Part shown: positions 14,427-31,806 of the stretch, piece after piece
Position numbering within the stretch: the first letter of the stretch is position 1
How the letters are laid out: every line of letters begins with the position of its first letter
Origin: Deltaproteobacteria bacterium
GTDB taxonomy: Bacteria; Desulfobacterota; Desulfomonilia; UBA1062
Assembly (NCBI GenBank): GCA_029552245.1
Contig: JAKPDW010000019.1
Location: forward strand, 1-37,559
Reading direction: 5' to 3'
DNA: 37,559 nucleotides
Program-made: the position numbers and the translations under genes
The notes under the pieces: generated by a model
The model's input: only the letters and a program-made list of their open reading frames with translations
What the model was told of the DNA's origin: nothing
Database searches by the model: none

Positions 14427-14525
14427 GTATGAAAGGAAGGTTCCGTGTCTCCCTGTGCCCGCAGGGGGTCACGGGTGCCTTTGGAATTCGATGATTCCGT
14501 CAAGAACCGAGTAAAGGAGAGTGAT

Positions 14526-16241
14526 ATGAATTATCTGATCCAGCCAAAAAAGTTCAAGAGTCTCATGGCCGACGAGGGCTCGCGGGCCATCATGGAGAAG
14601 ACCATCGCCTTCTTCGAGAACATGGGGAAACAGAGGCTTCTCGACGACTACCACAGGGCCATCTGGTACCGCGAGTTCATCGACTTCATCGGCAGGGAAC
14701 GGATCTTCTTCAAGCTGCTCACGCCCAGCCAGTATGCGGACGGAGACCCGGACGCCCGCTGGGACACGGCGCGCAATTCCGAGTACTCGGAGCTGCTTGC
14801 CTTCTACGGGCTCGGGTACTGGTACTGCTTCCAGGTGACCATCCTCGGGCTCGGGCCGATCTGGATGAGCCCCAACGAGAAGGCGAAGAGGAAGGCCGCG
14901 AAGCTCCTCAGGGAGGGCGCCATCTTCGCCTTCGGCCTGTCGGAGAGGGCCCACGGAGCGGACATCTATTCCACCGAGACCGCGCTCACCCCGAAGGGCG
15001 ACGGCACGTACGTGGCCAACGGCGAGAAGTACTACATCGGCAACGGCAACGAGGCGGAGATGGTCTCGACGCTCGGCAAGGTGAAGGACGGGACGGACGA
15101 CTACGTGTTCTTCGTCACCAACTACCGGCACAAGGCATACCAGCTCAAGAAGAACGTCATAAACCACCAGGAGTACGTCTCCAACTTCGCCCTGAACGAC
15201 TACCCCGTCACGGAGGACGACATCCTCTCCAGGGGGCCGCACGCGTGGGACTGCGCGCTCAACACGGTCAACATCGGCAAGTTCAACATCGGCCCGGCTT
15301 CCATCGGGCTGGCCGAGCACTGCTTCTACGAGGCCATCACGCACGCGTCCAACAGGATACTCTACGGCATGAGGGTCACCGACATGCCCCACGTCCGGAA
15401 GAACTTCATGGACGCCTGGCTCAGGCTCGTGGCCATGAAGATGTACCAGCGCCGCGCCACCGACTATTTCCGCAACGCATCCCCCAAGGACAGGCGCTAC
15501 CTCCTCTACAACCCCACGAGCAAGATGAAGGTCACGCTCCAGTCCGAGGACGTGGTGAACCTCCTGTGGGACGTGATCGCGGCCAAGGGGTTCGAGAAGG
15601 ACACGTACTTCCACATGGCGGCCTCGGACATGCGCGGCCCGTCCAAGCTCGAGGGCACGGTGCACGTCAACGTCCAGCTGATACGGAAGTTCATGAAGAA
15701 CTATTTCTTCAACCCGGCCGAGTACGCACCCGTGCCGCCCGACTTCTCCCTCAAGGACGACATGTTCCTCTTCGACCAGGGTCCGACCAAGGGCCTGGGG
15801 TCCATACAGTTCCACGACTACAAGCCCGTCTTCGATGCGTTCAAGTCGCTGCCGAACGTGGGAGCGTTCATGAAGCAGACCGAGATATTCAAGGAGATGC
15901 TCGAGAAGGCGGGTCCGGACAAGGCGCAGGACATGGACCCGTCGTGGTCCTTGCCGCTGGGCGAGATGTTCTCCATCGTGGTCTACGGCCAGCTCATCCT
16001 CGAGCAGGCGCAGATAGACAAGGTCGAAGACGACGTCGTCAACCAGATCTTCGACTTTATGGTGCGTGACTTCGCCCACTTCGCCCTCCAGATCTACGGC
16101 AACCACGCCTCCACGGACGAGCAGCGCGGGTACTGCACGAAGATCATGCTCATCAAGGCGGTGCCTGCACCCGAGCAGTACCAGAGGGTGTGGGAGAAGT
16201 ACGTGTCGGCCCTCAACGGCGAGTACGAGATGAACCCGTAA
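14526..16241 (+). CDS. acyl-CoA dehydrogenase (long, about 570-residue type)
   Basis: A 571-residue FAD-dependent acyl-CoA dehydrogenase, which would oxidise an acyl-CoA to the 2,3-enoyl-CoA. It is much longer than the standard 380-400-residue enzymes and resembles the extended types I associate with fatty-acid-using and syntrophic Deltaproteobacteria. Motifs are FAFGLSERAHGADI (135-147, flavin/substrate loop), ANGEKYYIGNGNEAE (164-178), NTVNIGKFNIGPASIGLAEH in the third domain, and KLEGTVHVNVQ, where Glu376 is the likely catalytic base. A C-terminal extension of about 180 residues follows. AAAGGAG lies upstream of the ATG at 14526. It is second in the sigma-54 operon and is followed at once by a strong hairpin. 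Confidence 0.9.
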   Translation: MNYLIQPKKFKSLMADEGSRAIMEKTIAFFENMGKQRLLDDYHRAIWYREFIDFIGRERIFFKLLTPSQYADGDPDARWDTARNSEYSELLAFYGLGYWYCFQVTILGLGPIWMSPNEKAKRKAAKLLREGAIFAFGLSERAHGADIYSTETALTPKGDGTYVANGEKYYIGNGNEAEMVSTLGKVKDGTDDYVFFVTNYRHKAYQLKKNVINHQEYVSNFALNDYPVTEDDILSRGPHAWDCALNTVNIGKFNIGPASIGLAEHCFYEAITHASNRILYGMRVTDMPHVRKNFMDAWLRLVAMKMYQRRATDYFRNASPKDRRYLLYNPTSKMKVTLQSEDVVNLLWDVIAAKGFEKDTYFHMAASDMRGPSKLEGTVHVNVQLIRKFMKNYFFNPAEYAPVPPDFSLKDDMFLFDQGPTKGLGSIQFHDYKPVFDAFKSLPNVGAFMKQTEIFKEMLEKAGPDKAQDMDPSWSLPLGEMFSIVVYGQLILEQAQIDKVEDDVVNQIFDFMVRDFAHFALQIYGNHASTDEQRGYCTKIMLIKAVPAPEQYQRVWEKYVSALNGEYEMNP

Positions 16242-16591: not shown

Positions 16592-16618
16592 TCAAGTAAA
16601 GAGTCGTGATGCCGATAA
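16592..16618 (+). promoter_or_regulatory. FliA (sigma-28) type promoter
   Basis: TCAA, 15 bases, then GCCGATAA. The -10 octamer is a perfect match to the sigma-28 consensus and the 15-base spacing is correct. TCAA replaces the commoner TAAA at -35. It lies about 33 bases before the ATG of the 88-residue gene at 16651. Confidence 0.65.
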
Positions 16619-16650
16619 GATAAGCGAAGAACTCTCGAAAGGGGACCGCG

Positions 16651-16917
16651 ATGAAGGTCAGTCCTGAAATGGGTAATGTAATCAACATAATAAGAAGAGA
16701 GGGTGGGGATCAGGCCCTCAGGAAGGCCGATGCGGCCAAGGAGAGAAAGGAGATCGAGGACGTCGTCTCCATCGAGAACAGGCAGGCATCGAGCCCCGAG
16801 GTGAAGAGCGTGGACGAGGCGAGGGATCTCCTGGCGTCCGTGGTCGAGGCCCTCAAGCACGCACCCACGGATCTCTATGCCCTCGACGTGAACCGCGTCT
16901 CCGTCATGATCAGCTGA
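16651..16917 (+). CDS. small protein of likely FliA regulon; possibly FlgM-like
   Basis: An 88-residue, probably cytoplasmic, largely helical protein with no signal or membrane segment. Layout: an N-terminal helix (MGNVINIIRREGG), a charged A/K/E-rich stretch, a short EIEDVVSIEN strand-like segment, then two helices ending DLYALDVNRVSVMIS. This outline (short motif near VSI, then C-terminal helices with a D/Y/V pattern) recalls the anti-sigma factor FlgM, which is itself often FliA-controlled. The match is loose and I do not claim homology. The sigma-28 promoter upstream favours a motility link. AAAGGGGA precedes the ATG at 16651, and a strong terminator follows at 16945. It is monocistronic. 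No other flagellar gene is in the window. Confidence 0.6.
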   Translation: MKVSPEMGNVINIIRREGGDQALRKADAAKERKEIEDVVSIENRQASSPEVKSVDEARDLLASVVEALKHAPTDLYALDVNRVSVMIS

Positions 16918-16944
16918 AGCAGGCCCTTCCCACAGAAGAGACAG

Positions 16945-16980
16945 AACCACAGGCCGCCTCCGTGCGGTCTGTGGTTTTTT
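16945..16980 (+). terminator. Rho-independent terminator of the small FliA-type gene
   Basis: AACCACAGGCCGC pairs with GCGGTCTGTGGTT (one G:U) around a 6-base loop, and the final TT begins a run of six T. It starts 28 bases after the stop codon at 16917. Confidence 0.9.
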
Positions 16981-17160
16981 CCGTGTGGTCGCCCCCGCTC
17001 GTCCCTGTCTCCATACCCGTCACACATTCTCGAAGACCCCGTGTTTCCTTGCCGATCCGGTGGGCAAGAAAGGTCTCTGCGACATGCCGTTGCCGCAAGG
17101 CCCCGGGCGCCTGGTGACCCTCCGGCGGTTCGGATGAATTTTGTCCTTTGCCGCCAGGCC

Positions 17161-17274: not shown

Positions 17275-18390
17275 TCAGTCCTTCGCAGGGGTGGACTCGG
17301 CGGAACGGGTCGTCTGTGAGGTCTCGGGCTCTTCCCCGTGTTCCAGCGTGTCGTCGAGCATGACCCTGTAGATGCGCTTTATGTCACGCGTGATCTCGGG
17401 CGTCAGGATGTCCTCGACCCTGGGCGGCCTGTTGACGAAGCGGTAGTAGTCGTCGCCGATGTACGGCCCCGAGATCTCCTGTGTGAAGGCGCGCGCCGCC
17501 ACGTCGGAGATGGCGAGGATGGAGAGTTCTTTCACGATGTCCCCGTGCGCCTTGGCAAGCTCGCGGACAGGCCAGAACATCGGCCAGTGATGGGCCGCGA
17601 TGCAGGCGACAAGCCTCTGAGGCATGCCCCAGTGCTTTGCGAGGAGCCCTCCGAGCGTCGCGTGGTCGATGCCGTAGTGCTCCGTCTCCTGCCTGAGCCG
17701 CTCCCTGGGGTCTTTCGAGAAGCCGCCGGGGGGTGCGGGCAAGGACGCGGCCATGACGGTGAGCGCGATATCGTGGAGCATGCCGAGGGTCACCATGGTC
17801 CCTCCAGGCACGCCGATGCGGCTCACACCCGTGAGGTAGGCCGCTATGGTGGAGGTGACGTTCGCGTGGACCCAGTCGGCCTTGTCCTGGCGGATGCCGA
17901 TCTTCCGTGTGCGCTCCTCCATGACGATCCGGTAGATCTCGTTGTAGCCGAGGATGACGATGGCGTTGAAGATGTTGTCCACCTTCTGCAGCAGGCCGTA
18001 GTACGGCGAGTTCACCCTCCTCAGGATGAAGGAGGTCAGGCCCTGGTCCTGGACGATGATCTTGCTGATCTCCCTCGGGTTGATGTCAGGGTCGTTGAGC
18101 TTCGAGGAGAGCTCGGTGATGAGCGGGGAGATCTGCTCGATCTTCTCCACGAGTTCGAGCACGGACTCGGGCGCATGGGAGAGGGCGTCCCTGTCGGGTT
18201 TCCATTCCTGGTTGTAGACCTCAAGGAAAGAACCGATGTCCTCCTGCGGCGAGACGCTGACGTATCTGGCGGGGGCCTTCCTTGTCGGCTTGGCCGGGGG
18301 TTGCGAACGCTTGGTGTCGGCCACGATCCAGACCAGCACGCCGACGGCAAGGACCACGACGACAAGAATGAAGGCGCTCATCACCATCAT
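17275..18390 (-). CDS. membrane-anchored HDOD domain protein
   Basis: A 371-residue signalling protein. One N-terminal membrane segment (about 3-24, SAFILVVVVLAVGVLVWIVA) is followed by a basic linker and a cytoplasmic HDOD domain (about 75-310). HDOD features are IIVQDQGLTSFILRRVNSPYYGL (in part: RRVNSPYYGL), NAIVILGYNEI, LGMLHDIALTVMA with the HD pair, and IAAHHWP. HDOD proteins usually act as scaffolds or regulators in bacterial signalling rather than as proven hydrolases. The tail is low-complexity E/T/S-rich. The start is one of two close ATGs (18390 or 18381) with only a weak AAGAG ribosome site. It diverges from a second, soluble HDOD gene at 18914. Confidence 0.87.
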   Translation of the reverse strand: MMVMSAFILVVVVLAVGVLVWIVADTKRSQPPAKPTRKAPARYVSVSPQEDIGSFLEVYNQEWKPDRDALSHAPESVLELVEKIEQISPLITELSSKLNDPDINPREISKIIVQDQGLTSFILRRVNSPYYGLLQKVDNIFNAIVILGYNEIYRIVMEERTRKIGIRQDKADWVHANVTSTIAAYLTGVSRIGVPGGTMVTLGMLHDIALTVMAASLPAPPGGFSKDPRERLRQETEHYGIDHATLGGLLAKHWGMPQRLVACIAAHHWPMFWPVRELAKAHGDIVKELSILAISDVAARAFTQEISGPYIGDDYYRFVNRPPRVEDILTPEITRDIKRIYRVMLDDTLEHGEEPETSQTTRSAESTPAKD

Positions 18391-18913
18391 GGTCTCTTAT
18401 CGGGAATCGATAGGCTATTCTTTAAGTGCATGACCGTTCTGTCATCGGCAGACGTCGAGCACCCCCTCGTCCTGAAGAAAAGCAGCCCGGACTCGATCGT
18501 GAGCCCCGCTCGCGCCTCGCATCCACGGTCTTTCGTGGGGAGGACCCCCGCCTTCCGGTCGAGACGTGACCGGGCGTAACCCGTGGTTCAAAAGTGCACG
18601 AGGGGCCTCGGAGAGAGGGTCGTCCGGGCAGGCAAAGTTCGTTCACGGGGGCCGTCCTTTCCCATGCGGGTATGCGTGAAAGGCCTTTGCCCCCTGGTGA
18701 ATGTCTTTGCCCAGGCGCACCCGGTGCCGTGACAGCCGCGGGTGTTCAAGTGGGCCGGTCCCCTTTCCGAAGGAACAGGTATGGCAGACAGGCGGACACC
18801 GAGCCTCAGTGTGGGATGCGTCCCGCCGGGGAAAGGGCGCACATGTGTGGCGGCCCGGCAGGCTGGCCGCGTCGCATGCCGTGAAGAGGTGACACCCGAG
18901 AGAAGGCGCGATC
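18391..18913. other. 523-base divergent intergenic region between two HDOD genes
   Basis: No gene is supported here; the open frames are arginine- and proline-rich with no family resemblance. It must hold the promoters of both HDOD genes, but I could not find a convincing sigma-70 or sigma-54 site. Confidence 0.5.
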
Positions 18914-30264: not shown

Positions 30265-31806
30265 GTGTTCGAGCAGTTCTTCGGCCTTTCAGAGAATCCC
30301 TTCAACGTCACCCCCGACCCGCGGTTTCTGTTCCTGTCGAAGGCGCACGACGAGGCGCTGTCGTACCTGAGGTACGGGATCGATCAGCGCAAGGGGTTCA
30401 TTCTCATAACGGGAGAGGTGGGTGCGGGAAAGACCACCATCTGCAGGGCGCTCTTGGCGGGCCTGCCGAAGACGGTGAAGACGGCGCTCATCCTGAACCC
30501 CGCCCTGTCGGCGGTGGAGCTGCTGCAGGCGATCAACCAGGACTTCGGCATCGATGCGTCCTCCACGTCCAAGAAGGCGCTCTTGGACGAGCTCTATGAC
30601 TTTCTCATCAAGACGTTCGTGAACGGCGAGAACGCCGTCCTCATCATCGACGAGTGCCAGAACCTCGAGCCCGAGGTCCTGGAACAGATCCGCATGCTCT
30701 CCAACCTGGAGACCGAGAAGGAGAAGCTCCTCCAGATCGTGCTCGTGGGCCAGCCAGAGCTCGTGAAGATCCTCTCCGCGCCCGCGATGAAGCAGATCGA
30801 CGACAGGATCGTCCTCAGGTACCACATCTGGCCGCTCACCCTCTGGGACACGAGGAGCTACATCAACCACCGGCTCGTCATCTCGGGCTCCCACGGCGAC
30901 ATCAAGTTCACGTCGCTCGCCATGCGGTTCATACACCGCCATTCGGGGGGCATACCCAGGAGGATAAACGCGCTCGCCGAGCGCTGCCTGCTCATGGCCT
31001 ACCTCAGGACGACGAGGAAGATCACCCTCCCCATCGTGCTCTCTGCAGTGAGGGAGCTGAAGGGCAACTACCCCTCGAGGAGGTTGAGACCGGCCCTGGC
31101 CGCGGCCGCCCTGGCAGTCTTCGCCGCGGGCGCCTTTGCCGCCTGGCAGGTCATGCCCGGCATCATCCAGGGCCGAGGAGAGGGGGTGGGCTCGGAGGTC
31201 GTCAAGGAGAGGGACATCAAGGCCGTCCTGCCGGATGGCGCCCTCGGCACCGGGGCGGCTCAAACGGCCGGCGGGGCGCCGGTGCGTGACGTCAGGGGGT
31301 GGATCATACCCGAGTACGACGCGGCCCTCGATGCCCTGGGCAGGCTGCCCAGCGGGCTGTACGGGCCCGACTCCATGAACCTTCACCCGCGGCCCGAGTA
31401 CCTCCGGTACTGCCCGGCTCCCTCCGTGGTCTCGGTGGAGGGGGGGTACGTGGTCATGCTCGAGGCGGGTGAGGACTTCGTGAGGGTCGTGGGGGCGGAC
31501 AAGGCGGTGATCGAGATCCCCATGGAAGACTTCCAGAGGTTGTACAGGTGGAACGTGATGGTTCCGTACGCCCGTCCCCTGCACCCCGAGTACCTCTCGG
31601 CCGGCAGGAGCGGGCCCGTGGTGGAGGAGGTCCAGAAGGTGCTCCTGGGGCTGGGGCTCGTGGACATCGAGCCGGACGGCCTCTACGGCCCGGAGACCGT
31701 CCAGGCCGTGGAGCGTTTCCAGGAGCTCATGGGGCTCAAGAGGGACGGGATCGTGGGTCCCGAGACCTTGATTCTCCTGAGGAACATCGGGGGAGGCCCG
31801 CGATGA
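30265..31806 (+). CDS. gspA: GspA/ExeA-like AAA ATPase with peptidoglycan-binding domain
   Basis: A 513-residue protein of the ExeA/GspA class, which helps the secretin pass and assemble in the peptidoglycan. The N-terminus MFEQFFGLSENPFNVTPDP is the family hallmark. The AAA ATPase has Walker A GEVGAGKT (50-57) and Walker B VLIIDECQN, followed by one membrane segment (about 273-298). A periplasmic part ends in a peptidoglycan-binding domain (about 447-510, VQKVLLGLGL to FQELMGLKRDGIVGPET). The start is GTG at 30265 with GGGAG upstream. It overlaps the next gene by 4 bases (ATGA). Confidence 0.92.
   Translation: MFEQFFGLSENPFNVTPDPRFLFLSKAHDEALSYLRYGIDQRKGFILITGEVGAGKTTICRALLAGLPKTVKTALILNPALSAVELLQAINQDFGIDASSTSKKALLDELYDFLIKTFVNGENAVLIIDECQNLEPEVLEQIRMLSNLETEKEKLLQIVLVGQPELVKILSAPAMKQIDDRIVLRYHIWPLTLWDTRSYINHRLVISGSHGDIKFTSLAMRFIHRHSGGIPRRINALAERCLLMAYLRTTRKITLPIVLSAVRELKGNYPSRRLRPALAAAALAVFAAGAFAAWQVMPGIIQGRGEGVGSEVVKERDIKAVLPDGALGTGAAQTAGGAPVRDVRGWIIPEYDAALDALGRLPSGLYGPDSMNLHPRPEYLRYCPAPSVVSVEGGYVVMLEAGEDFVRVVGADKAVIEIPMEDFQRLYRWNVMVPYARPLHPEYLSAGRSGPVVEEVQKVLLGLGLVDIEPDGLYGPETVQAVERFQELMGLKRDGIVGPETLILLRNIGGGPR

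Follow-up and report, generated by a model that had tools for sequence, protein, structure and literature searches.

A small gene with a conserved FliA-type promoter in a deltaproteobacterial genome encodes a candidate FliW ligand

Of the controls of CsrA that act through proteins alone, the FliW-CsrA-flagellin system is the best known. CsrA represses flagellin translation and FliW inhibits CsrA; to our knowledge, CsrA and flagellin are the sole FliW ligands known so far. In C. jejuni, and with the N72-flagellin of B. subtilis, it is the flagellin N-terminus to which FliW binding has been mapped, and the role of the C-terminal flagellin motif is disputed for this reason. In an alanine scan of C. 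jejuni CsrA, only V51A and N55A out of 75 mutants abolished FliW binding (PMC7829508), and N55 of CsrA is needed in Geobacter sulfurreducens too (PMC13407953). FliW protects residues 240-260 of the B. subtilis flagellin and acts as a flagellin stabiliser as well (PMC6070490), and the stoichiometric switch of FliW, CsrA and flagellin is 1:1:1 in this organism (PMC6529632). A conserved C-terminal flagellin Asn is essential in B. subtilis, according to a citation of the original work (Titz 2006, as cited in PMC5466977). Judged by tail length, it would be the Asn of the EN motif described below, since the motif Asn stands 49 residues from the C-terminus in the flagellins analysed here, which gives residue 255 in the 304-residue Hag. 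A literature search, with most subscription papers outside it, found no described FliW decoy or antagonist.

The window, the whole stretch of 37,559 nucleotides that was analysed, contains a gene for an 88-aa protein directly behind a sigma-28 site. The features of the region are the following.

16592-16618, + strand: sigma-28 (FliA) promoter TCAAGTAAAGAGTCGTGATGCCGATAA, read as TCAA-N15-GCCGATAA, with the -35 box at 16592-16595 and the -10 box at 16611-16618
16638-16645, + strand: Shine-Dalgarno-like AAAGGGGA; AAGGGG(A) is kept in most orthologues
16651-16917, + strand: gene of the 88-aa protein, predicted to be FliA-dependent and to encode a FliW ligand
16765-16833, + strand: CsrA/flagellin-like block VSIENRQASSPEVKSVDEARDLL, codons 39-61 of the 88-aa gene, from sequence comparison
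16943-16981, + strand: intrinsic-terminator-like hairpin with a U run (-26.6 kcal/mol, z -4.1)
17275-18390, - strand: HDOD-domain gene (PF08668), the convergent conserved neighbour of the 88-aa gene
18397-18424, - strand: sigma-28 site TAAAGAATAGCCTATCGATTCCCGATAA before the HDOD gene, kept in nearly all relatives

The site at 16592-16618 matched 11 of the 12 consensus positions (TAAA-N15-GCCGATAA) with the correct spacer of 15 nt, and its pattern was detected once in the window and in none of 100 dinucleotide-preserving shuffles. The -10 box lies 32 bases from the start codon at 16651. The earlier note had described an excellent sigma-28 site correctly placed before an 88-residue protein, and both parts of this description were confirmed; the D-L-Y-A-L-D-V stretch pointed out there corresponds to residues 74-80. 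The gene has its own sigma-28 site and is followed by the hairpin with the U run, and is therefore a single-gene unit; the hairpin was absent from the + strand listing of the consensus terminator scan. The -35 box is TCAA in the window's genome, versus TAAA in the consensus. Upstream, an acyl-CoA dehydrogenase gene (14445-16241) stands at the place held by rsmI in most relatives. The HDOD gene product has an N-terminal membrane helix, and no more than about 7 nt separate the -10 box of its sigma-28 site from the first ATG; the mRNA may therefore be leaderless, or the true start may lie further inside the gene.

Orthologues of the 88-aa gene were detected in 18 of 24 same-family genomes, the window's genome and 17 others. 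The 17 orthologues (32-51% identity, six-frame protein search of 99 genomes) show that the gene is real; the same search gave no orthologue outside the same family. A sigma-28 site was found 58-65 nt before the start codon in 18/18 orthologues, confirming the promoter conservation in relatives that the earlier note had proposed to check, and in most relatives the -35 box overlaps the stop region of the upstream rsmI. The family profile search also reached distant homologues in other families of the phylum, six in all (f8, f17, f24, f52, f82 and f35); 29 of 395 genomes gave strong matches, with E at or below 4e-10, and weaker matches came behind these. At least 10 of the 12 sigma-28 consensus positions were matched at 31 of 37 loci versus 31 of 642 random windows of the same loci, counting the best site within 250 bases before the match, and some random windows themselves hold sigma-28 promoters. 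Family f24 is without its own sigma-28 site, and the gene directly follows fliD and fliS. In the examined genomes of a sister family of the same class, the gene, FlgM, FliD, Flagellin_C and an over-cut-off FliA were all absent. Degenerate-pattern scans of named genomes gave no relatives for the window protein, and those made for a relative matched six MAGs. No Pfam or NCBIfam model was matched above chance by any member of the family; single-sequence matches such as Hjc and V-ATPase E were far below the cut-off and differed between members, and are therefore considered chance matches. The alternative offered in the earlier note, a new motility-linked small protein, is borne out: the promoter is of FliA type and conserved in the orthologues, and the small protein behind it is unclassified in Pfam and NCBIfam.

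The conserved block of the 88-aa family (V/I-x-x-E-N-x-x-A ... V-x-x-A-x-x-x-L) matched the C-terminal extension of the same-genome CsrA without gaps. The hhalign E-values were 1.7e-5 to 2.2e-5 with same-family members only, 1.6e-6 to 2.1e-6 with distant members included, and 1.4e-6 with distant members alone. As controls, 96 windows of unrelated neighbouring gene families gave a lowest E of 0.02, 40 column-shuffled queries per set a lowest E of 0.012, and reversed CsrA 0.4-0.6. The genome-wide family profile search independently detected the CsrA C-terminus as a weak second match in the window's genome (E 0.0075 and 0.0016), and weak matches in two other genomes (G214 and G098) overlap the CsrA genes. 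The C-terminal motif of the same-genome flagellin was matched less strongly than CsrA, with an hhalign E of 5e-4 (shuffles at 0.05 or above) and only 0.018 for the distant members alone. In the PDB profile search, flagellins were five of the nine weak matches, aligned at ENxxASxSRIRDVDMA. A flagellin-profile hmmsearch of 1740 ORFs placed family members among the top, with E 0.14 or worse and non-family ORFs interspersed, a ranking that is no more than suggestive.

The three groups of proteins share one register. In the ungapped alignment, Asn at position 0 was present in 22/22 family members, 30/30 CsrA and 9/9 flagellin sequences, and E/Q at -1 and A/S at +3 in all 61 aligned sequences. V/I at -4 was found by script in 21 of 22 family members (22/22 if one row is granted a one-residue gap), 30/30 CsrA and 7/9 flagellin sequences; V/L at +11, A at +14, L/M at +17 and L/V at +18 complete the common register. 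Positions -4 and 0 are V51 and N55 of the C. jejuni CsrA, and Val39 and the invariant Asn43 of the 88-aa protein align with them. The concise motif [VI]xx[EQ]Nxx[AS] places three kinds of FliW ligand, the 88-aa family being a predicted one, in a common register. The motif was found 21 times in 386 neighbouring ORFs (133,514 aa), always in the 88-aa family; the pattern was devised after the sequences had been inspected, and the block in common is short, spanning some 20-35 residues.

AlphaFold predicted a helix to residue 47, a loop and a helix at 54-70, similar to the two helices of the CsrA extension. The mean pLDDT was 64 and the pTM 0.28-0.29 (two runs, 16 and 23 sequences), and because of this low pTM the models were used for helix boundaries only; a Foldseek search of the predicted structure against PDB gave no match. 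The 88-aa protein thus shares with the CsrA extension (PF02599 proteins of FliW-containing bacteria) the gap-free block, the V51 and N55 equivalents and the helix-loop-helix. Unlike CsrA, it is without the RNA-binding beta domain (no PF02599 match among the family members) and has its own FliA promoter, an extra disordered N-terminal part and a third C-terminal helix. With the flagellin C-terminal D1/D0 segment (PF00700) it shares the IENxxASxSxIxDVDxAxxMV motif in the same register and FliA dependence in the same regulon, whereas the N-terminal domain, D0-C helices recognisable by profile and any Pfam match are lacking (Flagellin_N and Flagellin_C, PF00669 and PF00700, 0/23 members).

The window's genome (G000) encodes FliA (G000:C69, TIGR02479, E 4e-84). 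A looser sigma-28 pattern gave 27 matches in the whole genome versus 0 for the backwards-read control, and inspection by eye placed FlgM, FlgL, FliS, an FlgC/FlgG-like rod protein, a hemerythrin-like protein and type IV pilus genes after these sites. These counts, including the FlgM, FlgL and FliS operons, show that such FliA promoters are in use in this genome. The flagellin gene is preceded by TAAA-N15-GACGATAA, and fliW lies just downstream of flgL, a FliA-promoter gene. The flagellin leader (C30, about 30531-30671; L166) is about 135-141 nt long with seven GGA triplets, as would be expected of a CsrA-repressed flagellin mRNA. One further sigma-28 site (G000:C43:16983-17008, L089) stands before a 74-aa ORF (MEVKNIFMNLIMRTYERQ...) that precedes flgM. 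Others were found before PilB-like and prepilin-like genes (G000:C43:90308-90334, C27:19296-19322 and C56:48476-48502), which suggests that type IV pilus genes may also be FliA-driven.

FliW (PF02623), the predicted partner and no relative of the 88-aa protein, was detected in 18/18 same-family genomes with the gene, and CsrA likewise in 18/18. One genome of the same family (G010, 97% complete, FliA present) is without the 88-aa gene, FliW, CsrA, Flagellin_C and FliD, and its flagellum has apparently been lost or remodelled; it has a diverged FlgM-like protein. Among the other same-family genomes that lack the gene, completeness does not exceed 86%. In the distant carriers G100 and G156, neither FliW nor CsrA was detected; fliW and csrA often adjoin in other genomes, so that one assembly gap could explain both absences.

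We propose that the 88-aa protein is a dedicated, FliA-dependent FliW ligand and a rival of CsrA and flagellin, and we put the probability of this reading at roughly 0.6. The support at the sequence level consists of the promoter, its conservation and the shared block, the presence of FliW, CsrA, FliA and FlgM in the genome, and the GGA-rich flagellin leader. After the hook is finished, FliA would become active and the 88-aa protein would be made together with flagellin. Its C-terminal half is predicted to carry the helix-loop-helix block, as do the CsrA extension and the flagellin D1 end; with this block in common, it would be a competitor for FliW. Bound to the 88-aa protein, FliW would be unable to inhibit CsrA, leaving CsrA free to repress flagellin mRNA translation. 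With CsrA as the repressor of flagellin translation and FliW as the inhibitor of CsrA, one more FliW ligand would reinforce the repression and bring forward the response of the loop, and the 88-aa protein would set the amount of free flagellin at which the CsrA block is lifted or tightened. This direction of the effect, an anti-FliW factor and thus an anti-antagonist of CsrA, is put forward tentatively, at slightly below even odds. We infer the binding, the competition and the direction alike, and FliW binding is held more certain than the direction.

A tail that mimics the flagellin D0-C and binds FliS would make the protein a FliS client or an export-related mini-flagellin, perhaps exported, inserted in the filament or timing flagellin export. 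The flagellin-like C-terminal motif in the same register, the C-terminal hydrophobic pattern RISQLIS (compare NVLSLFG) and the position of the gene directly after fliS in f24 are consistent with this. We nevertheless consider it unlikely, because the FliS-binding D0-C helices of flagellin are not conserved in the 88-aa family (similarity ends around residue 61-67), several families have quite different ends (YYYQH, VRLW), and the match is stronger to CsrA, which is no FliS client.

The same motif evidence could describe a FliW ligand of opposite effect, which would favour flagellin synthesis either by stabilising or delivering FliW or as part of a ternary complex of FliW with CsrA or flagellin; FliW stabilises flagellin as well (PMC6070490). 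A single shared binding surface would favour competition over a ternary complex, and we give this alternative a small chance only. A similarly small chance is left for an exported FliW sequesterer, the translational counterpart of FlgM, which supposes that the disordered N-terminus is an export signal. When export is blocked, FliW would be held and CsrA would repress flagellin translation; when the 88-aa protein is exported, FliW would be freed, CsrA inhibited and flagellin made. There would then be two parallel export-sensing brakes, FlgM acting on FliA and the 88-aa protein on FliW.

A second, diverged FlgM-type anti-sigma factor, bound to FliA via two C-terminal helices and exported at hook completion, is very improbable: FliA control, small size, the disordered N-terminus, the MKIN start as in the same-genome FlgM and a helix pair with a Y/H-x-L-N pattern speak for it, but PF04316 matched 0/23 members (hmmscan), hhalign to the same-genome FlgM aligned these four residues only (E 0.04-0.06, no better than column-shuffled queries), and a separate canonical FlgM gene accompanies the 88-aa gene in 17 of 18 carrier genomes (exception G008), in the window's genome at G000:C43:17378-17539 (E 2e-15). 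The FlgM-like anti-sigma factor suggested by the earlier note was accordingly abandoned, and the FlaG profile also named there had no match in the Pfam or NCBIfam scans. Two other comparisons gave noise: the FlgL C-terminus (hhalign E 0.24 and 0.28), and the flagellin N-terminus against the MKINPE N-terminus of the 88-aa protein, though by eye RINTNVAAIN resembles KINPEISNVIN.

Under the preferred reading, a dedicated ligand competing with CsrA and flagellin for FliW, the CsrA-FliW-flagellin switch itself is known, and what appears new is a family without a name as a third FliW ligand. If this is true, a third, dedicated and FliA-controlled ligand would change the model of the stoichiometric switch. 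It would also suggest a CsrA tuning route in delta-proteobacteria without known Csr sRNAs, and would explain a family that is spread over seven families of the phylum and lies outside the Pfam and NCBIfam models. Separately, we detected a second small-protein family at loci L157-L161 (genomes G309, G399, G269, G202 and G381), with the sequences MEISSLYP... and VTTQNLAS...VDxxQAxxLLxxVQ. It carries a related QNLAS motif without a sigma-28 site and is possibly another FliW-motif protein; at three or more of the five loci, the next gene begins with MK[IV]EDLL.
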